From a virus, in IMG/VR virus record IMGVR_UViG_3300034073_001656, positions 1 to 21,190 of that record: a stretch of DNA of 21,190 bases; one strand, written 5' to 3'. Below the pieces are notes generated by a model. It worked only from the letters and a program-made list of their open reading frames with translations. It made no database searches and was not told the DNA's origin. The position numbers were made by a program, and so were the translations under genes. This document shows positions 1 through 21,024 of this stretch, piece by piece (positions within the stretch are counted from its first letter, which is position 1; each line of letters opens with the position of its first letter).

Positions 1-223
1 CTTGTCCCGCAAAACTATCTATATTTTCAAAATACATTTCTATTGGGAATGATGCTTTAAATTCTGATAGACGATCTTCACCAAGAATCTCGTCTTTTGA
101 TACTAACTTTCTTGGAATGTAGAAAAACTCTTGACCATAAATTCTTAAAGATTCAATGATCAAGTCTTCAACTAGATACTGCTCATTTCTCGTGCCATGA
201 GAGAAATATACATTGGTTGGCAT
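1..223 (-). CDS. 14: gp14-like neck protein, N-terminal part
   Basis: This gene starts at the ATG at 223-221 and runs off the left edge; 74 residues are visible. The protein begins MPTNVYFSHGTRNEQYLVED and continues through LIIESLRIYGQEFFYIPRK, a start I recognise from gp14 neck proteins of marine T4-like phages. In T4, gp13 and gp14 form the neck that closes the filled head and joins it to the tail. The start lies 3 bases after the stop of the gp13-like gene, which matches the T4 order 13-14 and suggests coupled translation. No own promoter is visible. The call rests on remembered family sequence and on gene order; the missing C-terminal part cannot be judged. Confidence 0.88.
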   Translation of the reverse strand, partial: MPTNVYFSHGTRNEQYLVEDLIIESLRIYGQEFFYIPRKLVSKDEILGEDRLSEFKASFPIEMYFENIDSFAGQ

Positions 224-226
224 GAG

Positions 227-1180
227 TTATCCTAAGAAAAAGTCTAGAGGTGCTGATTTGTTTTGTAGTTCGTCTTCTAGTTCTTTAATTTCACCAGTTG
301 CTTCATCATACAATTTATCACCATCTAATGTTACACCACCTGGAAGTTGAATTCCAGAAAACTTTTTAATATTAGTTGCCCACTGCTTTTTAAATAGCGC
401 AGTAACATAATGTTTTAGCCATGCTTCATTCCACACTTTAGAAAATTGAGCTGGATCTAAAGCACGATATCCTTGAATAATAATGTAATCACCAAGAGGA
501 ATATCTTGTTGCCAATTGATATCTAAGTATAAACGATTTTGTGTACGATTAAATCTAAAAGATGTATGACCATTTAACTCTAAATCTAATAATGCTAGAT
601 GTTGCATTACAGTTTTATAATAAATGATAGATGTTGAAGTCAAATCATATAAATCATTTAATCTTAACTGATATTGAAGATCAAAAATGTTTTTCGAAGA
701 TGATGCCATACCAATACTTAATACTTTGGTGACACCATAAACTAGATCTGGAATTTCAATATACTTGTTGTCGTACTCTCGAAGAGTAATAGATGCTAAT
801 GTAGCTGTTGTTGTTCCATTACTAATTATTTCATTTGCAGCAAATGTACCAACAACATTTTTAACTAGCAGTAATGTTCCTGAAGATTCTCTAGTTGTTT
901 CACGGCAAACTTCAGCAGTTGCGCCAGATATTTGCCCTGTGATTTTATCAGCAATCTGAAATGTATTTGCAACAGAAGTAGTTAATGTAATTTCTGAAGC
1001 ACGAATCTGATGCTTCATATAAATTTGTTCAATACCTTCATAGTGGTATAGACGCCAATAATCTAATGCTTCGTCAATACGATCTTCTAATTGATCTTCA
1101 TCGACGTTTATCTCAAGCACTGGTGCACCCAGTGCTCTGAGACAATACTGTTTTAATTGTTCTCTAGTTGCAACAGCCAT
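227..1180 (-). CDS. 13: gp13-like neck protein with an inserted beta module
   Basis: A 317-residue homologue of T4 gp13, the head-completion/neck protein that partners gp14. Family features are the start MAVATREQLKQYCLRALGAP, then INVDEDQLEDRIDEALDYW, the middle YQLRLNDLYD and the C-terminal IQLPGGVTLDGDKLYDEA ending in PLDFFLG. Between about residues 63 and 133 there is an extra stretch (ITGQISGATAEV then VKNVVGTFAANEII), where marine gp13 proteins as I recall them pass directly from the helical N-terminus to the 'NKYIEIPD' strand. A related stretch occurs in the DUF4815 protein of this window. The start ATG overlaps the stop of the upstream fibre gene as TAATG at 1182-1178, so translation is probably coupled. 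The identity is firm; the insertion is seen directly, and its function is unknown. Confidence 0.92.
   Translation of the reverse strand: MAVATREQLKQYCLRALGAPVLEINVDEDQLEDRIDEALDYWRLYHYEGIEQIYMKHQIRASEITLTTSVANTFQIADKITGQISGATAEVCRETTRESSGTLLLVKNVVGTFAANEIISNGTTTATLASITLREYDNKYIEIPDLVYGVTKVLSIGMASSSKNIFDLQYQLRLNDLYDLTSTSIIYYKTVMQHLALLDLELNGHTSFRFNRTQNRLYLDINWQQDIPLGDYIIIQGYRALDPAQFSKVWNEAWLKHYVTALFKKQWATNIKKFSGIQLPGGVTLDGDKLYDEATGEIKELEDELQNKSAPLDFFLG
782..994 (-). other. Inserted 'ITG-SGAT' beta module within gp13
   Basis: Residues 63-133 of the gp13-like protein. The pattern is I-T-G-x-x-S-G-A-T, a variable stretch, then V-x-N-V-x-G-T-F-x-x-x-E-I-I, and a final T-A-T-L-A-S-I strand. The same order of motifs occurs at residues 1340-1397 of the DUF4815 protein. 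It looks like a small self-contained beta domain decorating the neck. The exact edges are estimated. Confidence 0.6.
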
Positions 1181-8592: not shown

Positions 8593-9330
8593 TTACCAAA
8601 GTCCGTAAATTTCTTCAACGATAACAGAACCAGTTGAACCTGATTGTCCATGTCCACCACCAGATCCATAAATTCCTTTACCTGGTTGGCTAGATCCGCC
8701 ACCACCTAGTCCACCACCAGCTCCAAAATATTGAAAAGATCCTGATCCTGGGTTGTATCCACTTTCACCTTGTGGAACCCAATATGGTCCATAAGAAAAT
8801 TGTGTTCCAGAAATACCGCCTTGTCCACCATAAACAATTGCTCCAGAACCTGAACCAGAACCACCAGATCCTCCAGAATTCGTTCCGCCTGCACCACCAC
8901 CAGTAGCTGCAACGTAAGAACCAAATGAAGTAGTGCCACCGCCAGCTCCAGAACCACCACCTGCGCCAACAGTAACTGTAACAGTAGTACTAATTTCTGA
9001 AATATCTAAAACACGAACAGCTATACCTCCAGCGCCTCCGCCAGAGTTTGATCCGCCACCACCGCCACCACCGTAGCAAGTAACACGTAAACGCTTTAGA
9101 TCATTCTTACCAGTTGTAGAATATGTTGATGCGCCAGCAGTTGTAAAATATTCTGTACGAGTCCAACCGCGCGGACGATCTTCTCTAGCAGATGGAATAC
9201 CACCAGCAGTAACACCATCATGAACGATTGTTACGTCTTTATCTGTATCTACTGTGACTTCTCCTAACGCTCCTGTAAATGCAGCGTGCTGAGCAGTAGT
9301 ACCTCTTCTTAATTTAACTTGTTTTGACAT
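8593..9330 (-). CDS. Glycine-rich adhesin, paralogue 3 (245 aa)
   Basis: A candidate receptor-binding protein. Residues 1-48 (MSKQVKLRRGTTAQHAAFTG, then GEVTVDTDKDVTIVHDGVTA) are an Mtd-type N-terminal docking domain. Residues 51-82 are a linker strand region (DRPRGWTRTEYFTTAG, then LKRLRVTCYG). From residue 87 the chain is dominated by glycine runs, with a conserved VTVTVGAGGGSGAGGGTTSF strand unit at 116-136 and a differing middle (GPYWVPQGESGYNP) at 150-215. It ends GSVIVEEIYGLW. Glycine-rich tips that pack as polyglycine helices with variable loops are known from the gp38 adhesin of Salmonella phage S16; that this protein folds likewise is an inference. It is last of three tandem copies, with AAGGAATT as ribosome binding site in an 11-base gap. 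Confidence 0.8.
   Translation of the reverse strand: MSKQVKLRRGTTAQHAAFTGALGEVTVDTDKDVTIVHDGVTAGGIPSAREDRPRGWTRTEYFTTAGASTYSTTGKNDLKRLRVTCYGGGGGGGSNSGGGAGGIAVRVLDISEISTTVTVTVGAGGGSGAGGGTTSFGSYVAATGGGAGGTNSGGSGGSGSGSGAIVYGGQGGISGTQFSYGPYWVPQGESGYNPGSGSFQYFGAGGGLGGGGSSQPGKGIYGSGGGHGQSGSTGSVIVEEIYGLW
8921..8961. repeat. 41-base exact repeat shared by adhesin paralogues 3 and 2
   Basis: The bases at 8921-8961 are identical to 9658-9698. They code for the conserved GSGAGGGTTSFG region. Flanking sequence differs even where the protein is alike, so the identity is higher than its surroundings. Confidence 0.85.
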
Positions 9331-9341
9331 AGTGTAATTCC

Positions 9342-10061
9342 TTATACAAATCCGTAGAATTCTTCAACAATAACAGAACCTTGTGCGCCACCTGCTCCTG
9401 ATCCACCACCACCACCACGAATACCATTACCACCTGTACCTGATCGACCACCACCGAAACCGCCACCAACCATACGACCAGCAGAATATGATGAGTTACG
9501 TGCTGGATAGTTAGAAGATTCTCCTTGACAAGCACCTTGTCCACCTAGTATATATACAGGGTTTCCAGAAACGCTACCGCCACCGCCACCGCCTGATCCA
9601 CCAGATCCACCACTATAACCAGAACCAGCACCGCCACCAGTTGCATTAATGTATGTACCAAATGAAGTAGTGCCACCGCCAGCTCCAGAACCACCACCAG
9701 AACCAATAGTAACTGCTACGTTTGTAGTTAAATCAGTAACTTCTAACACAACTTGTGTAATACCACCACCACCGCCACCAGATTGTCCACCACCACCACC
9801 GCCACCACCGTAGCAAGTAACACGAATACGTTTTAAATCTGTTTTTCCTGACAGTGTCCATGTTCCACTAGAAGTAAAAATTTCCATTCTAGTCATACCA
9901 CGTGGACGATCTTTTCTTAATAGAGGAATACCACCTGCTGTAGTTCCATTATGAACTACAGGAACATCTTTATCTGTATCTACAGTTACTTCGCCTTCAA
10001 CGCCAGTAAATGTTGCGTGTTGCGCAGTAGTACCTCTTCTAAATCTAACTTGTTTTGACAT
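9342..10061 (-). CDS. Glycine-rich adhesin, paralogue 2 (239 aa)
   Basis: Same plan as its two neighbours: docking domain at residues 1-48 (MSKQVRFRRGTTAQHATFTG), linker DRPRGMTRMEIFTSSGTWTL, strand TDLKRIRVTCYG, a run of eight glycines at 85-92, the conserved NVAVTIGSGGGSGAGGGTTS unit, and a glycine-rich distal part that ends GSVIVEEFYGFV. The middle differs from the others and contains ILGGQGACQGESSNYPARNS and RMVGGGFGGGRSG. It shares a 41-base identical stretch with paralogue 3 and a 44-base identical start with paralogue 1, so pieces have been exchanged or kept. A GAGGA ribosome binding site lies in the 15-base gap before the ATG. Role as host-binding tip is inferred. Confidence 0.8.
   Translation of the reverse strand: MSKQVRFRRGTTAQHATFTGVEGEVTVDTDKDVPVVHNGTTAGGIPLLRKDRPRGMTRMEIFTSSGTWTLSGKTDLKRIRVTCYGGGGGGGGQSGGGGGGITQVVLEVTDLTTNVAVTIGSGGGSGAGGGTTSFGTYINATGGGAGSGYSGGSGGSGGGGGGSVSGNPVYILGGQGACQGESSNYPARNSSYSAGRMVGGGFGGGRSGTGGNGIRGGGGGSGAGGAQGSVIVEEFYGFV
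10018..10061. repeat. 44-base exact repeat at the starts of adhesin paralogues 2 and 1
   Basis: The bases at 10018-10061 are identical to 10726-10769. They are the first 44 coding bases (MSKQVRFRRGTTAQ). The downstream coding sequence diverges at silent and replacement sites. Such a shared start could serve as a point for recombination between the copies. Confidence 0.85.
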
Positions 10062-10076
10062 TTTAGTTATCCTCTA

Positions 10077-10769
10077 TTATACATATCCATAAATTTCTTC
10101 AATAATAACACCACCAGAACCTCCTGATGCTGTTGGTCCGCCACCAGATCCAAATAATCCTTTTCCAGCCTCACCATATCTGCCACCACCCCAAGGACTA
10201 CCACCACGACCTTGTGCAGAACCTAAACCGACACCAGATACACCTGATTGTGCACCTAAATTGATAACACCAGTTCCTGAAGCAGAACCTGGAATAGATG
10301 ATGCAGACTGGCTTCCTTGGTTACCAGCACCACCACCAGAACAAGAAATAAAGGTACCAAATGAAGTAGTACCACCACTAGCGTTTTGTCCACCGCCAGC
10401 ACCAATAGTAACAGCAACAGTAGCTGGTAGTGAAGTTGCTTCGATAGTTACAATACCTTGTCCACCTTGAGCACCACCAGAGTTATCACCACCACTTCCG
10501 CCACCGCCACCGCCGCCTGATGCTAAAACACGAATGCGTTTTAGATCAGTTTTACCAGAAATACTGTATGTGCCTGATGAAGTAAAATATTCGACTTTAG
10601 TAAATCCACGTGGGCGATCAGCACGAGCAACAGGAATACCACCTGCAACTACGCCATCATGAACGACTAGTGCTTTTTCATCAGTATCTACTGTAATTTC
10701 ACCAGCTGGACCAGTGAATACGCTATGTTGCGCAGTAGTACCTCTTCTAAATCTAACTTGTTTTGACAT
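10077..10769 (-). CDS. Glycine-rich adhesin, paralogue 1 (230 aa)
   Basis: First of the three tandem adhesins to be transcribed. It has docking domain residues 1-48 (MSKQVRFRRGTTAQHSVFTG, GEITVDTDEKALVVHDGVVA), linker DRPRGFTKVEYFTSSGTYSI, strand TDLKRIRVLASGG, a glycine run near 85-91, the VAVTIGAGGGQNASGGTTSF unit, and the C-terminus GGVIIEEIYGYV. It is the most divergent copy: the conserved 'VTCYGG' of the others is VLASGG, and its middle (residues 150-195) is richer in Ser, Ala and Gln than in long glycine runs. AGGGA serves as ribosome binding site. It is probably transcribed from the late promoter at 11789-11782 together with the 320-aa gene. Receptor binding is inferred. Confidence 0.8.
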   Translation of the reverse strand: MSKQVRFRRGTTAQHSVFTGPAGEITVDTDEKALVVHDGVVAGGIPVARADRPRGFTKVEYFTSSGTYSISGKTDLKRIRVLASGGGGGGGSGGDNSGGAQGGQGIVTIEATSLPATVAVTIGAGGGQNASGGTTSFGTFISCSGGGAGNQGSQSASSIPGSASGTGVINLGAQSGVSGVGLGSAQGRGGSPWGGGRYGEAGKGLFGSGGGPTASGGSGGVIIEEIYGYV

Positions 10770-14495: not shown

Positions 14496-14725
14496 TATTG
14501 ACCTTTGTTTAGTAACGCAATTAAGATATTCTTAATTTCTGCGATATCAGTTTTTATACTTTCGATATCATCAGTGTTCTTTTTTACTTCTTCATTAATT
14601 TTTTGATGAGTTCTTCTCTTGTTCACATAATTTTCATAATCAATCTTATTAGTATTTATGATAGCTCCACTACTCATATCTCGAACAAGAGAATCTTTAC
14701 CTTCTATTTTTAGAAAATTATTCAT
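14495..14725 (-). CDS. Small coiled-coil structural protein (76 aa)
   Basis: It starts at ATG 14725-14723, overlapping the stop of the DUF4815 gene by one base (TAATG). A TTG three codons upstream is also open but would be less usual and needs no invoking. Sequence: MNNFLKIEGKDSLVRDMSSG, then AIINTNKIDYENYVNKRRTH, followed by a heptad-patterned helix (VKKNTDDIESIKTDIAEIKN) to the end. I recall similar small proteins ('NFLKvEGh..LvRD.....i.N') next to the baseplate fibre genes of marine T4-like phages, without known function. The coiled coil could join fibre and baseplate or form a small trimer. The TAATG junctions at both ends suggest its amount is tied to its neighbours. Confidence 0.78.
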   Translation of the reverse strand: MNNFLKIEGKDSLVRDMSSGAIINTNKIDYENYVNKRRTHQKINEEVKKNTDDIESIKTDIAEIKNILIALLNKGQ

Positions 14726-17700
14726 TATGCGCAAGCGATAATACGTAGATCTTTAATGCGTGGAACTTCAGAACTATTCTTAGATTTCATAACAAGTTTC
14801 ACTTGGACCGCATCAAATGATTCGATGTTATCTTTGGAATAAGAAACATCAAAGAATTGATTGCTTCCATTTGTAGCATTAATAATAGGAGCATCTGGAT
14901 CTAGTTTAGTGTATGTTAATGTATCAAACGATGATGTAGATCCAACTACAGCAGTTTTATACCACACCTCAACAGTAGCATCTGAAGGTAGATTTACTGC
15001 GAATCTAATCTTTAAGAAGTTAGAAGCATTTGCAAAATTGATCTTCTTAGTTACATATTTACTGTATGTTGAAGAATCAAAAGATGCAATTTCATCAACA
15101 AAACGCTCTTTCTGTGTAATTGTGACATTACCAGTGACTGCTGCTGGTGCTTCAGAGAATGTTATAGAAGATCCATCAGCAGCGATATCTGTGATAAGTC
15201 TAGTGCTTTCTCCAGAAGATGCACCAGCAATAATCATATACTTTCCAATGCTAGCAGATAAGAATGCTTCTTTTGTAGCAGTATCAGAAGTAGTAATAGT
15301 ATTACCAGAAATGCTAATATTAGCTGAATTAGAAACGATGACATTACTATCTAATGCCACTACGTTCATATTAACTTCTGATGGGTCATTAACTTTGTTT
15401 GTGAATACAATCGCACTGGTTCTATGTGTGTCGATAATAGGAGACAATGCATCATTAGTTGTGGACATTGTCACGTTCATTGTTAATGATTTATTACCAG
15501 CTAGAGAATTAGTCTCATTAATTTCAGAAGCAATCATTCTTGGTGCTTCAAAGAAATTATTTTCATTCGCAAGAACAGGAGTAAATGAAGATTCCTGAAC
15601 ATATGCATTTTGAGTAGTTGAATCTACAGACTTACCAGTAGTTGTTTTCAATCCAAAGTTAATTACAGTATCAGAGAATCTCTGAACTTGAACAGATGGT
15701 TGAATACCGTCAATCTGAATATTTCTAGTTGCTCTAACAGAAGAACCACCAACATAACCAGAAGCATTAGCATTAGTAGAAACTGTAATAACGTAACTGT
15801 CTAGATCTACATCGCTAATGATATGAGTTGTATTAAACTCAGAACTTGGAATATTATTGATAGTTCCAGAAACTCCACTTATAGTAACTCTAGAACCTGA
15901 AGGCATTCCATGTTCTTTCTGCCAAACTCTAACCTTATTAGTGCCAGATCTAGTTTCAAATGGATCCTGGAATAGAGTTTGTTGAGGAACAACGTCGTTA
16001 ACATATTCTATGTTTCCAACAACACCAGTCTCAAATCTTGCACGATATAGAGTGAATTTTAGATCTTGAGTTTGGTCTGCAGTCCATGTAGAAGCGTTTT
16101 GTGACTTAAACAGAGAACCAAGATATGGCTGCTCAGAAATTGTTCTAGCAGTTCCTGGCATCTGATCACCGATCTGAGAGATCCAAACTTTATAGTTATT
16201 TGAATCAGATGCTAGAACGATACAGTACTCAGTGTTCTCTTCAACATATACTGGAGATGGGAAAACAAAAGAAGTTGGTGTATCATACTTCGCTACAGTT
16301 GTTCCATCTAGGTTTACTGTATTTGTTGAGATATTAACTTGCTCTGGATTTAACTTAATGCGAGAGAATGGTAGAACACGTTTTCCTGGATAACCATTTA
16401 CCATTTCTCTAATTTCTAGAGTTACAGGAATAGCTGAATCTTTTGTTGCAAAGAAAATATCAACTTTTGATAGGAAACATCCACCACGTTGCTCGATTAA
16501 GAATGACTGTGCTAGTGGATCCCACCAACCAGTATCAGAAACTACTCTGTCTGTAGTTTGAGTGATAACTCTATTCTCAACAACACGCTCTTCAACAATC
16601 TCTGCGTTTCTAACAGCATTAACTGTTTGTTGTCTAGTTTCAAGAACACCTTCAGCGCGATAGTTTGCACGACCACGAGAAGTAAATTCTCCATCTGCAG
16701 TAGCAGCATCGATTAATTTAAATTCTCTAGTTCCACAACGGAAACGTACAGCGTCAGTATTTGGAATATTAAACAGTAGTTGAATGTCACCATTAAAGTT
16801 TGATACAAGGTTAGCACCAGTAGTACCAGAAGCAATAGTAGAAACAGTACCTGTTGCAGCAGAAACAGAACCAGTAATAGTTTCAGTTGGACTAAATGTT
16901 CCAATAACATTTAAAACATACAACGCATATGTTTCAGTATCTGGATTATATTCTTTTCCAACAAGAACACCAGTTGCTCCAGATGTAGAACCAGTAATGA
17001 TGTCACCACGATTTAAACAAACTTGTGTATCACCATTTACTCTTCTGGCTGCTGCTGAAGCCAAACCACCTACGTTAGTTTCAGTGTCAAACGCACTATG
17101 TTGTGCATATTTCAACGCAGAAGTAGCACCTGTTGGAGTATAAACAATTTTAGTGGCTGGTGTGCAATAGCTGGTTATAGCGATATCGTCGAAATATGGA
17201 TAGAATCTTGTATTTGGTTTTAGTCCACGTACCTGAACTAAGACATTACGACTACGGATATATGGAATAGCTGCAGTTGATAAAACTCGATCATTGACAA
17301 TCTGTCTATCGATTTTTGCAACAACAGTAGACTTAACGCCAGTTCTTTGCTGCCCTAATTCTACAGCAGTAGTTTCTGCAGTTATTTGACGAGCATTACC
17401 CCAAGATGTGATACCAAAACGCTGCTGAACTTCTGCTTGAGATAAACGAACATCACCAAACCCAGAAGCCCAGTTACTACCAAATGTATAAACAACACGA
17501 CCAGTGTTAACAGGTGCACCAGACCACTGAGTTTGCCAAGCATTCCAAACAGTTCCAAGAACACCAGCCTGTTCAGCCATGTTCTTAATAGATTCAAAAT
17601 TACCTTCTACGTTATTAACAATGTCTGGACGACGATCGATTTCAAACCAATCATCAGAAGATGGGTTTAGTTTAACATCACCTAAGAAAGTGAAAACTGC

Positions 17701-20700
17701 AAATGGATTGATGTTTTCTAATCTAGAAGCATATGGTTGTTCGATTAATTTAACATCTTCTACAACTGGAAGAGTTATAACATCGCCATATAATTTGTAG
17801 TTAGATCCTGCGCGTTGAGTGTTATTAGAATTTTTCTCTAACAGATTGATATTCTGCATAGCATAGAATGGTCTTAACTCTGCAGCTTCCATGTCGATAG
17901 AGCAAATATAATCTGGAGAATTTGTATCACCAGTATTATGACCTTGGAAATTATCTACAATAAATCCATTCTTAAATCTAGTATCACCATTAGAGTCGAT
18001 AACATCTAATGATTCTGTTTGCTGTTCTAATAGCGATAGAGAAGTATAATATTCTAGATTGTCAATACGCTTTTCTAACTTACCAATATCGCGCATTGTA
18101 TAACGTTTATTGTCTAGTCTATTAACTTGAACATTATTGCTTAGAGTGCCAAATGTATATGGCTCTAATGTTAGATTATACAACACAAGACCAAGTTCTG
18201 GATCTTGTGGTTCACCAGGATTTAGAGATGGGACACCATCAATAGAGAAGAAATTGCCAGAAAAGTCCATAGCAATTTTAACTTTTCTTGGGAGATAGTA
18301 TGTGAAGTCTGCGCTTACATCTATACCTCTCTTTGGAACTAATGAGACAGAAGCACCTGTTCCTGAGAAAGTTGTGCCAGCATCATCAATTCTTGGTCTA
18401 AAGTCGATGCAATCTCTTAACGATACATTTTGGAAATATGGAATAGCCTTGTAATCAATATTTGCAGGATATGAGTTTACTGTAAAATAATCGCCAGTAG
18501 AATGAGTGAAGTAATCAAACGTAATTTCAATAGGTGCTTCTGGTGGAGCAAAAGAATTCTTTAAGATCAATCTTGATTGATCATAGTGAGTATCTCTTTG
18601 TCCATTATCGAAATCATATCGATCGCTAATATCAATAGAATATGTAGCACCTGGAGACGCAAATGTTCCAGATTTCATTTTGACAGAAACTATTCTGTAT
18701 GCATCAGCTTTACCAAGCAATAGAGTTGAAGATTGTGCAGTTGCTTTAGATGTAAATGCAACAGTTGCTGAAGAAACTAAGGTCTTTGTTTTCTCTGTTA
18801 AAACAGAACCACTCTTATTAACTGCAGCAATAACTTTAACTGCTCTGCCGTTTAATGCTGTTGATACGTTAATAACGCAACCAGAACCAGATGGAACGAC
18901 GCTAGATGGATTAATGATTGCACCACCACTAGTTACATCATAATCAATAACAACATAATTGTCAGTTTCTGCTGCAGAAGCAAATGTTCCAGAAGCAGTA
19001 GAAATAGAAATTTGTCCAGATGTCACGCTACCTGTGAATGTTTCATATACAGTGTAGATAGTATCATTTGTTAAAAGAGAAGAACGAACGTCTTTAATTG
19101 CATAGTATGGTAACTGAAATACCAGTGGTGTGTTTTGTGGCTCTAGAATATCTGTAGAAATTCTATCAATAGTAACACCACTAAGATTAACAGCAGTATC
19201 TATAGTAATATTAGTTTGAGAAACAATACTCTCTACACGTCTGATGCTACCACCAATAGAAATATAATCACCAACAATCAAATCTGTTTCAAACGATGTG
19301 CCAGATCCAATAATTGTTGTTGAGGAAGAAGGTGTTGCAATGCTTCCAGAGAAAACAGAACCAACTAATCTTGTATTGACAGGAGAAATATCTGCAGTAA
19401 AGTTGATATTTGCATCGCCTCTACTAAAATAAACAGATTTAACTTTTCTGTTAAAGTCAAAGTTATTATTTAATTTAATATCAAATAAACCAAGTTTGTA
19501 AATTGATGCTTGAGTACCGATTGTTCCATTGTGCCACTCTAAAAATCTAACTCTCGCTGTTCCGATAACAGTAGAACTTGTTGGAGCAACGCCAACAGAT
19601 GATGTGACTTTGTCGTATAAAGTGACTTCAGAGAATGTGTCTACTGGAGGAAGACCATTAATGTTTGTGATAAGAACATAGTTTCCTGCAGTAGTTGGAA
19701 TAATTCCATTATCAACTTGAACGTAATCTCTTGCCTTTTCTACCTCAAGATATTCAGTAGCAATTTTTTCAAGTTCAAAACCCTGAATGTATGCTTTTCC
19801 TGGCTCTAATCCAACAGCTAGTTTTGCTTCTGCTGCTTGTTGAGTAGCTAAGTTATCGCTATTGTCTGGAAAATAGATACCACGATTGTAATATGGAGTT
19901 AAATTATATTCCCACTGAATTCCAGTATTACCTGGACCATCATACACTGAACCAGCAGTATGTGTTGGAGGCGTGCTTGAAGAAGATGTTCCAGAATTTT
20001 TCGCGACGTATGTATTACTAGAGTTAGTGACTACATCTCCGATTAGATAAACTCTACCTGATGTCCATGCACCACGATTATTATTTCTGTACTCGCGAAC
20101 ATCAATCTCAAATGGTTTAACTGTATAGTTACCAGACTCATCATATGTTCTTCTTGCTAATGTTTGCTCAAGAATAGAGTATTCTGTTCTTCTAGTTTCT
20201 TTTTGTACTTTACCTGAACTAATTCTTACAAGTTCAATAAAATCAGTATCATTAGTATCTGTTAATGATAACTTACTTAAAACAGCCTCGATGTAATAGC
20301 GATGTGCGCCTGGAGCTGCAAAGTTAAATGTATTTTGAGCGTTATCGAATAGAGAAGAATCGTCTTCTGGCGTGATAATCTTTTCAGTAGCAGTTAAACC
20401 AATTCTATAAGATGGTGTGTTAGAATATTTGTCAAGAACAATACTTTGCTCTTCGACTAAAACAAAATGTTCTTTTAGATAAAACACACCTTCAGTGATT
20501 GTAGCGATAGATCCAGCACCACAAGGAGATGATGAAAGTGCTTGGATGTTTGCAATAGAAGAGTCATCTACTACACGGAGAACAGCAGAAGCTGAGTATT
20601 GCTTAGTTATACTATTATCGCCAGAGTTAACATAACGAACAAATAATGTTGGAGCATCAGAGCCTTCTGCTTTAGAATAGAAAATTACTTTTGCTCTTAG

Positions 20701-21024
20701 ACCTTCTGTTGTATCATCTGGAGCATCAGTAATAATTTTTCCAACATAAGATTCAAGAATAGTATCAGCTAGTACAGAGTTATATGTACTTTCTAATTTA
20801 ATGTATGCAATTTTTGTATCAACAGAGATTTGTCCTGGAATAATCATTGCACCTTCTTTGAAGATGTGATCACCAAAACGAGAAATCTGATTTTGCAGAA
20901 TAGTCTGCATCTGTGTTAGTTCTCTAGCCTGAACAGCATAGCCAGGACGATATAAAATTCTGTAGAATTTCTTAGACTCAGAAAAATCGTCGTAATATGG
21001 TTCAGTGTTAAAGTTAATTGCCAT
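14725..21024 (-). CDS. Giant DUF4815 baseplate/fibre protein (2,099 aa)
   Basis: The N-terminus (MAINFNTEPYYDDFSESKKF, YRILYRPGYAVQARELTQMQ, then FGDHIFKEGAMIIPGQISVD) is the DUF4815 signature of a virion protein found after gp8 in marine T4-like phages, in the place of T4 gp9/gp10. Residues 317-373 are a carbohydrate-binding-like insert; 560-615 a small beta unit (IIGSGTSFETDLIVGDYISI); 958-1060 contain MRDIGKLEKRIDNLEYYTSL; 1340-1397 the ITG-SGAT module; 1498-1665 a conserved domain (GWWDPLAQSFLIEQRGGCFL to LKFTLYRARF); 1690-1765 a HGMPSGSRVTISGV unit; 1905-1970 another small beta unit. No catalytic motif is seen. The role is probably baseplate periphery and fibre attachment; the exact T4 counterpart is uncertain. 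The gene begins 23 bases after the gp8-like stop with a weak AAAGAG ribosome binding site. Confidence 0.88.
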   Translation of the reverse strand: MAINFNTEPYYDDFSESKKFYRILYRPGYAVQARELTQMQTILQNQISRFGDHIFKEGAMIIPGQISVDTKIAYIKLESTYNSVLADTILESYVGKIITDAPDDTTEGLRAKVIFYSKAEGSDAPTLFVRYVNSGDNSITKQYSASAVLRVVDDSSIANIQALSSSPCGAGSIATITEGVFYLKEHFVLVEEQSIVLDKYSNTPSYRIGLTATEKIITPEDDSSLFDNAQNTFNFAAPGAHRYYIEAVLSKLSLTDTNDTDFIELVRISSGKVQKETRRTEYSILEQTLARRTYDESGNYTVKPFEIDVREYRNNNRGAWTSGRVYLIGDVVTNSSNTYVAKNSGTSSSSTPPTHTAGSVYDGPGNTGIQWEYNLTPYYNRGIYFPDNSDNLATQQAAEAKLAVGLEPGKAYIQGFELEKIATEYLEVEKARDYVQVDNGIIPTTAGNYVLITNINGLPPVDTFSEVTLYDKVTSSVGVAPTSSTVIGTARVRFLEWHNGTIGTQASIYKLGLFDIKLNNNFDFNRKVKSVYFSRGDANINFTADISPVNTRLVGSVFSGSIATPSSSTTIIGSGTSFETDLIVGDYISIGGSIRRVESIVSQTNITIDTAVNLSGVTIDRISTDILEPQNTPLVFQLPYYAIKDVRSSLLTNDTIYTVYETFTGSVTSGQISISTASGTFASAAETDNYVVIDYDVTSGGAIINPSSVVPSGSGCVINVSTALNGRAVKVIAAVNKSGSVLTEKTKTLVSSATVAFTSKATAQSSTLLLGKADAYRIVSVKMKSGTFASPGATYSIDISDRYDFDNGQRDTHYDQSRLILKNSFAPPEAPIEITFDYFTHSTGDYFTVNSYPANIDYKAIPYFQNVSLRDCIDFRPRIDDAGTTFSGTGASVSLVPKRGIDVSADFTYYLPRKVKIAMDFSGNFFSIDGVPSLNPGEPQDPELGLVLYNLTLEPYTFGTLSNNVQVNRLDNKRYTMRDIGKLEKRIDNLEYYTSLSLLEQQTESLDVIDSNGDTRFKNGFIVDNFQGHNTGDTNSPDYICSIDMEAAELRPFYAMQNINLLEKNSNNTQRAGSNYKLYGDVITLPVVEDVKLIEQPYASRLENINPFAVFTFLGDVKLNPSSDDWFEIDRRPDIVNNVEGNFESIKNMAEQAGVLGTVWNAWQTQWSGAPVNTGRVVYTFGSNWASGFGDVRLSQAEVQQRFGITSWGNARQITAETTAVELGQQRTGVKSTVVAKIDRQIVNDRVLSTAAIPYIRSRNVLVQVRGLKPNTRFYPYFDDIAITSYCTPATKIVYTPTGATSALKYAQHSAFDTETNVGGLASAAARRVNGDTQVCLNRGDIITGSTSGATGVLVGKEYNPDTETYALYVLNVIGTFSPTETITGSVSAATGTVSTIASGTTGANLVSNFNGDIQLLFNIPNTDAVRFRCGTREFKLIDAATADGEFTSRGRANYRAEGVLETRQQTVNAVRNAEIVEERVVENRVITQTTDRVVSDTGWWDPLAQSFLIEQRGGCFLSKVDIFFATKDSAIPVTLEIREMVNGYPGKRVLPFSRIKLNPEQVNISTNTVNLDGTTVAKYDTPTSFVFPSPVYVEENTEYCIVLASDSNNYKVWISQIGDQMPGTARTISEQPYLGSLFKSQNASTWTADQTQDLKFTLYRARFETGVVGNIEYVNDVVPQQTLFQDPFETRSGTNKVRVWQKEHGMPSGSRVTISGVSGTINNIPSSEFNTTHIISDVDLDSYVITVSTNANASGYVGGSSVRATRNIQIDGIQPSVQVQRFSDTVINFGLKTTTGKSVDSTTQNAYVQESSFTPVLANENNFFEAPRMIASEINETNSLAGNKSLTMNVTMSTTNDALSPIIDTHRTSAIVFTNKVNDPSEVNMNVVALDSNVIVSNSANISISGNTITTSDTATKEAFLSASIGKYMIIAGASSGESTRLITDIAADGSSITFSEAPAAVTGNVTITQKERFVDEIASFDSSTYSKYVTKKINFANASNFLKIRFAVNLPSDATVEVWYKTAVVGSTSSFDTLTYTKLDPDAPIINATNGSNQFFDVSYSKDNIESFDAVQVKLVMKSKNSSEVPRIKDLRIIACA
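16834..17007 (-). other. 'ITG-SGAT' beta module within the DUF4815 protein
   Basis: Residues 1340-1397. Its motif order is G-D-I-I-T-G-S-T-S-G-A-T, a variable stretch, V-L-N-V-I-G-T-F-x-x-x-E-T-I-T-G, S-A-A-T-G-T-V-S-T-I. It matches the insertion in gp13 in order and spacing. Edges are estimated. Confidence 0.6.
19906..20076 (-). other. Carbohydrate-binding-like insert in the DUF4815 protein
   Basis: Residues 317-373: R-G-A-W-T-S-G-R-V-Y-L-I-G-D-V-V, then N-T-Y-V-A-K-N-S-G, T-P-P-T-H, and G-I-Q-W-E-Y. The pattern 'W..g..Y..GD.V...g..Y.a....g......P........W' is that of chitin-binding CBM5/12-type domains and their phage relatives. Conserved aromatics are W320, Y326, Y339, W371 and Y373. Sugar binding is inferred, not shown. 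Confidence 0.55.

Follow-up and report, generated by a model that had tools for sequence, protein, structure and literature searches.

A duplicated β-barrel module in the neck protein gp13 of T4-like phages and its relatives in other virion proteins

The gp13 and DUF4815 genes of the window

The DNA analysed here, referred to as the window, comes from a T4-like phage and spans 21 kb (21,190 nucleotides). Its 317-residue gp13 matches PHROG_211 over residues 3-309, and a gp13 profile recovered the T4 gp13 structures 9mkb and 9lu4 (E 1e-26), which are also the top fold matches. The stretches of T4 gp13 that align with the window protein, residues 10-56 and 233-309, are the conserved N- and C-terminal parts. 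A second virion protein, at the far end of the window, belongs to the DUF4815 family and is matched by PHROG_358 over residues 2-1716. The features discussed below are all on the minus strand.

2-223, minus strand: first part of the gp14 gene (head closure Hc2), which runs off the window (PF11649, PHROG_460)
227-1180, minus strand: gp13-type neck protein, head-tail adaptor Ad2, 317 aa (PHROG_211, E 1.2e-40)
773-997, minus strand: inserted β-barrel module, gp13 residues 62-136 (present or absent at one exact site; AF2 strands)
794-853, minus strand: second half-repeat of the module, gp13 residues 110-129, GTF..GE.ITG..SG.TAT (hhalign)
905-970, minus strand: first half-repeat of the module, gp13 residues 71-92, F..GD.ITG.TSGATA.V (hhalign)
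14725-21024, minus strand: DUF4815 virion protein, 2099 aa (PF16075, E 6.2e-63)
16825-17010, minus strand: second module copy, DUF4815 protein residues 1339-1400 (35.5-bit profile match; AF2 strands; same PDB domain)

Between the two genes, at 8593-10769, lie three adjacent Gly-rich proteins of 245, 239 and 230 aa that share a near-identical start (MSKQV..RRGTTAQH) and look like tandem duplicates.

Homology of the two copies and the insertion site in gp13

The first-pass annotation proposed that gp13 residues 63-133, correctly placed at 782-994, resemble a segment of the DUF4815 protein. This likeness was confirmed by pairwise BLASTP of the whole proteins, which returned a single clearly significant stretch, gp13 77-127 against DUF4815 protein 1340-1391, with 21 of 52 positions identical (40%; E 3e-5). 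A profile made from 62 distinct gp13 inserts recovered the DUF4815 copy at 35.5 bits, the homologous block of gp13 being slightly wider than proposed (62-136). The same profile matches DUF4815 proteins that had been gathered from other contigs with a different query (E mostly between 7e-11 and 2e-5), and the module is present in the aligned DUF4815 relatives. Chance likeness through Thr/Ser/Gly composition was ruled out: 6,135 ORFs gave 237 matches to the profile at E<1e-3 and their reversed or locally shuffled versions gave none, while nine other window proteins, several of them strongly Thr/Ser/Gly-rich, displayed no significant match. Within PHROGs, gp13 residues 66-130 alone resemble a family of tail fibres (E 1.5e-5) and show a weak likeness to a baseplate-wedge family. 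Against PDB sequences the gp13-module profile found no match and the DUF4815-module profile only chance-level matches; an artificial consensus query also found no match. As judged from sequence, gp13 62-136 and DUF4815 protein 1339-1400 are homologous.

Four of the 39 gp13 sequences in the alignment (L066, L071, L077 and L080), which are 73-75% identical to the window protein, lack exactly 75 residues. The empty site reads KHAITQTDI followed by DNKYIPI, and the occupied site KHQIRASEI, the module, then REYDNKYIEI. Further insert-free close relatives were found in a second scan begun with an insert-free protein. The empty sites in close relatives rule out that the module is part of the gp13 core fold; by these alignments it is a true and precise insertion, as had been suggested. 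Base composition gave no useful signal of a foreign origin (GC 35.1% in the insert versus 32.5% in the remainder of gp13).

The accompanying claim that gp13 of relatives lacks the stretch holds only in part. The gp13 proteins read from T4 and from cyano-, pelagi- and methylophages have no module, and neither do those of at least 10 metagenomic relatives, but the module occurs in 60 of 93 non-redundant gp13 homologues, a count that is not a population frequency because most of the sampling started from a query that itself contains the insert. A diverged copy is also found in gp13 of a cultured phage, BUCT-ZZ01 of Synechococcus elongatus (host PCC 7942). On a tree of the gp13 core (IQ-TREE, 69 rows, 37 with the module, module columns removed), presence and absence require 7 changes by parsimony, at least 3 of them on well-supported branches. 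These several gains or losses indicate that the module is dispensable for the core head-closing job of gp13. Identity within the module is lower than within the core in every bin (for example, 0.51 versus 0.75), a pattern that an accessory domain at the periphery would be expected to show; this faster divergence fits a changing partner and weak or relaxed constraint equally. Two further length variants were seen. The gp13 proteins of 335-337 aa (L219, L224-L228, L232 and L234) carry a module with an extra ∼15-17 residues between its halves, and three insert-free gp13 proteins (L237, L238 and L244) have an extra ∼9 residues slightly downstream (YLDFSNIRDDANNAL), the module being present in gp14 of two of these three phages.

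Predicted structure of the module and its place on gp13

The two halves of the module align with each other over 22 columns (hhalign pairwise P 4.6e-9), and the module is a ∼75-residue, internally duplicated β-barrel domain. In the AF2 model built on the gp13 alignment, residues 61-130 have block-mean pLDDT values of 87-91 and six strands are predicted in the module (62-66, 79-82, 88-91, 103-110, 118-120 and 125-132), in agreement with the β module first proposed. This model overall matches T4 gp13. Its pTM of 0.54 leaves the core and overall arrangement uncertain, and where the module sits relative to the core is not reliably predicted. The DUF4815 copy, modelled from its own alignment, has five strands in the same order, most with pLDDT 71-82, in a model whose mean is only 59.7.

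Both predicted copies, although derived from separate alignments, match the same solved domain. The best match of gp13 61-132 is residues 768-842 of chain A0 in a KP1-variant baseplate structure, 9f4a (Z 6.8, rmsd 2.0, 65 residues aligned), and the DUF4815 model matches first that segment of 9f4a (Z 7.0, rmsd 2.4, 72 aligned) and next residues 775-850 of chain BJ in the T4 structure 5iv5 (Z 6.8). Both chains are taken as the baseplate wedge protein gp7 (1032 aa in T4) from their length, and A0 also from its match to T4. Among predicted viral proteins, several matches are common to the two models, gp7 proteins and a neck protein being additional matches of the DUF4815 model. When 26 T4-type gp7 segments were made into a profile, it aligned in register with that of the DUF4815 module (WTVTIHNLLGRLIAGQEV opposite YALYVLNVIGTFSPTETI; pairwise P 0.008); sequence similarity alone is weak. 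Against the combined alignment the value is P 0.022, compared with 0.27 for the reversed control. Together, these matches suggest that the module may share ancestry with the gp7 domain at ∼770-850, a Z of ∼7 being common among unrelated models. Weaker fold matches are to the barrels of EF-Tu, eIF2gamma, MreC and HtrA (Z 4-5.5).

T4 gp13 is built of a helix bundle, a swing domain at the periphery (52-192) and domain III (190-239), which binds fibritin; the swing domains form a peripheral ring, flip up and grip the portal and capsid through residues 90-157 (PMC12270204). Alignment places the insertion site at about T4 residues 64-72, within the first swing-domain loop and clear of the residues that grip. 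In the window protein domain III is missing, with ∼3 residues where T4 has ∼46, and the position of the module rules it out as the counterpart of that domain. A neck fibre, the other partner suggested in the first-pass annotation, would attach away from the place at which T4 gp13 binds fibritin. By analogy with T4, exposure of the module at the neck is plausible. A search for fibritin (PF07921) over nine contigs gave no match, and neither did its control.

The module family and its possible role at the neck

Whole records were scanned with a profile of both module copies. The nearest long contig to the window contains two, in gp13 and in the DUF4815 protein, and cyanophage genomes contain up to 14 each; none was found in the T4 record, the likeness to gp7 notwithstanding. 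In seven cyanophages (P-TIM40, P-RSM6, S-SZBM1, S-CAM1, S-SM2, P-SSM2 and S-CAM9) a copy is located in the C-terminal part of gp14, the neighbouring neck protein. The module is also found in other DUF4815 proteins (at another position in that of P-TIM40), in the S-CAM1 tail fibre, in proteins of 2,400-8,600 aa, in a Salinibacter-phage structural protein and in a protein of Rhizobium phage RHph_I3_18 annotated as 'neck protein' (L082:4494-6311). The last of these matches the amidase family PHROG_5107 over nearly its full length (E 1e-149), and its label is probably a misannotation. No Pfam model matched the module, which may therefore mislead annotation, as in this example. Its presence in so many unrelated virion proteins indicates movement between genes, as the first-pass annotation inferred from two proteins, and on a broader scale: the module is a shuffled virion domain rather than a neck speciality. 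When the modules themselves were placed in a tree, only the gp14 copies grouped, as a single clade (96/96); the modules are too short for donors to be recovered.

A mislabelled protein may also occur in Pelagibacter phage HTVC008M, where a 1016-aa virion protein encoded among baseplate genes (L284:2436-5486) is labelled 'head closure Hc2' despite a separate gp14 beside gp13. This label may stem from shared modules.

No copy was found in gp13 of the seven cyanophages with a gp14 module, nor, among those examined, in gp14 of the module-bearing relatives of the window phage, and none of 36 non-redundant gp13-positive phages has the module in both proteins. Because phages with a gp13 copy and phages with a gp14 copy belong to different clades, this exclusion is an observation and not a rule. 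It bears on the idea that the module is an assembly clamp which, whether carried by gp13 or by gp14, would add much the same contact among the rings of these two proteins and the tail terminator. Such a role would suit the mutual exclusion and the C-terminal location of the gp14 copy, in the region through which gp14 touches gp15 in T4 virions (PMC12270204). The exclusion may, however, reflect common descent, and many relatives have the module in neither protein; we consider a clamp very improbable.

The spread of the module might instead reflect neutral padding, whereby a well-folded barrel is tolerated at permissive loops, spreads by recombination between repeats and has no function in gp13. 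Its patchy distribution in gp13, with several gains or losses, the many copies per cyanophage genome that are able to recombine, and evolution faster than that of the gp13 core would all be accounted for. Against this, large clades keep the module with conserved core residues, only one strongly diverged copy was seen in gp13 (L051/L230), and the single clade of gp14 copies indicates long retention in that protein. Padding is thus an explanation that we doubt, albeit one that a generic virion barrel could satisfy.

It had also been suggested that the module might bind a surface sugar. A module of this type would act as an adhesin with weak affinity for host-surface glycans, gaining avidity from the many copies at the neck. 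There is precedent in the neck-borne binding modules of lactococcal 936 phages, for which host binding has been measured (PMC6669499), and the occurrence of the module in a tail fibre and an amidase, together with its variation relative to the gp13 core, would suit such a function. The gp13 modules, however, contain no Trp and only 0.9% Tyr, so that the usual aromatic platform is absent, and no Pfam CBM matched the stretch; a sub-threshold match of the DUF4815 protein to CBM_5_12 (E 0.16) is at residues 319-347, away from the module. Moreover, the most similar solved domain is from a baseplate wedge protein and not from a lectin or CBM, and a CBM on the neck fibre of cyanophage A-1(L) showed no binding to the host (PMC10966104). 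A sugar-binding role is therefore unsupported and unlikely.

The reading that we put forward, and to which we give an even chance of being correct as a whole, is that the module is a docking or spacer element. The ∼75-residue duplicated barrel inserted into the first swing-domain loop of gp13 would belong to a family shuffled among the virion proteins of cyanophage- and pelagiphage-type T4-like phages and some other phages, its placement differing by lineage: gp13 here, gp14 in marine cyanophages, and DUF4815 proteins, fibres or giant proteins elsewhere. From T4, gp13 is expected to assemble below the portal as a ring of twelve, and the neck would then bear twelve barrels on its outer ring, most probably as a docking or spacer surface for a fibre, a neighbouring neck protein or the capsid edge. 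Docking of this kind would parallel the way in which T4 gp13 holds fibritin by its own lineage-specific domain III. A wider version of the docking proposal, which we regard as possible but lean against, is that the barrel family, related to the T4 gp7 domain, is a general docking adapter moving among gp13, gp14, baseplate proteins and fibres. If so, the neck would gain and lose extra attachment sites on a short evolutionary scale.

Head-to-tail joint proteins are generally taken as conservative. In this metagenome-common group of T4-like phages, the joint protein gains and loses a whole domain of which other proteins of the same virions have copies, providing a natural with/without experiment on neck function that includes a cultured example, BUCT-ZZ01. 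Domain shuffling in phage virion proteins is itself already known (PMC10684548). As far as we found in the open-access literature, the new elements are the module itself, which is unnamed, the finding that a protein of the head-to-tail joint has or lacks it at a single defined position, its placement in gp13 by one lineage but in gp14 by a second, and a possible relationship with gp7.

Several known systems resemble the one described here. In T4 and KP1 the gp7 baseplate wedge has, at ∼770-850 (5iv5 and 9f4a), a fold similar to that of both copies. Shuffled RIFT-related barrels occur in phage tail and neck proteins (PMC10684548) and are likewise small barrels reused at these sites, although the matches of the module to such barrels are weak. 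Lactococcal 936 phages carry CBMs on the neck passage structure, TpeX and Dit, which are likewise interchangeable accessory modules of the neck, tail and baseplate with a patchy distribution between close relatives (PMC6669499); these modules have known CBM folds, with host binding measured for two of them, whereas no CBM fold was found for the gp13 module. Domain III of T4 gp13 is likewise an addition to this neck protein that is specific to a lineage. Domain III follows the swing domain, while the module sits in the first swing-domain loop; the two lineages thus differ in which extra domain the gp13 ring bears and in where it is attached.
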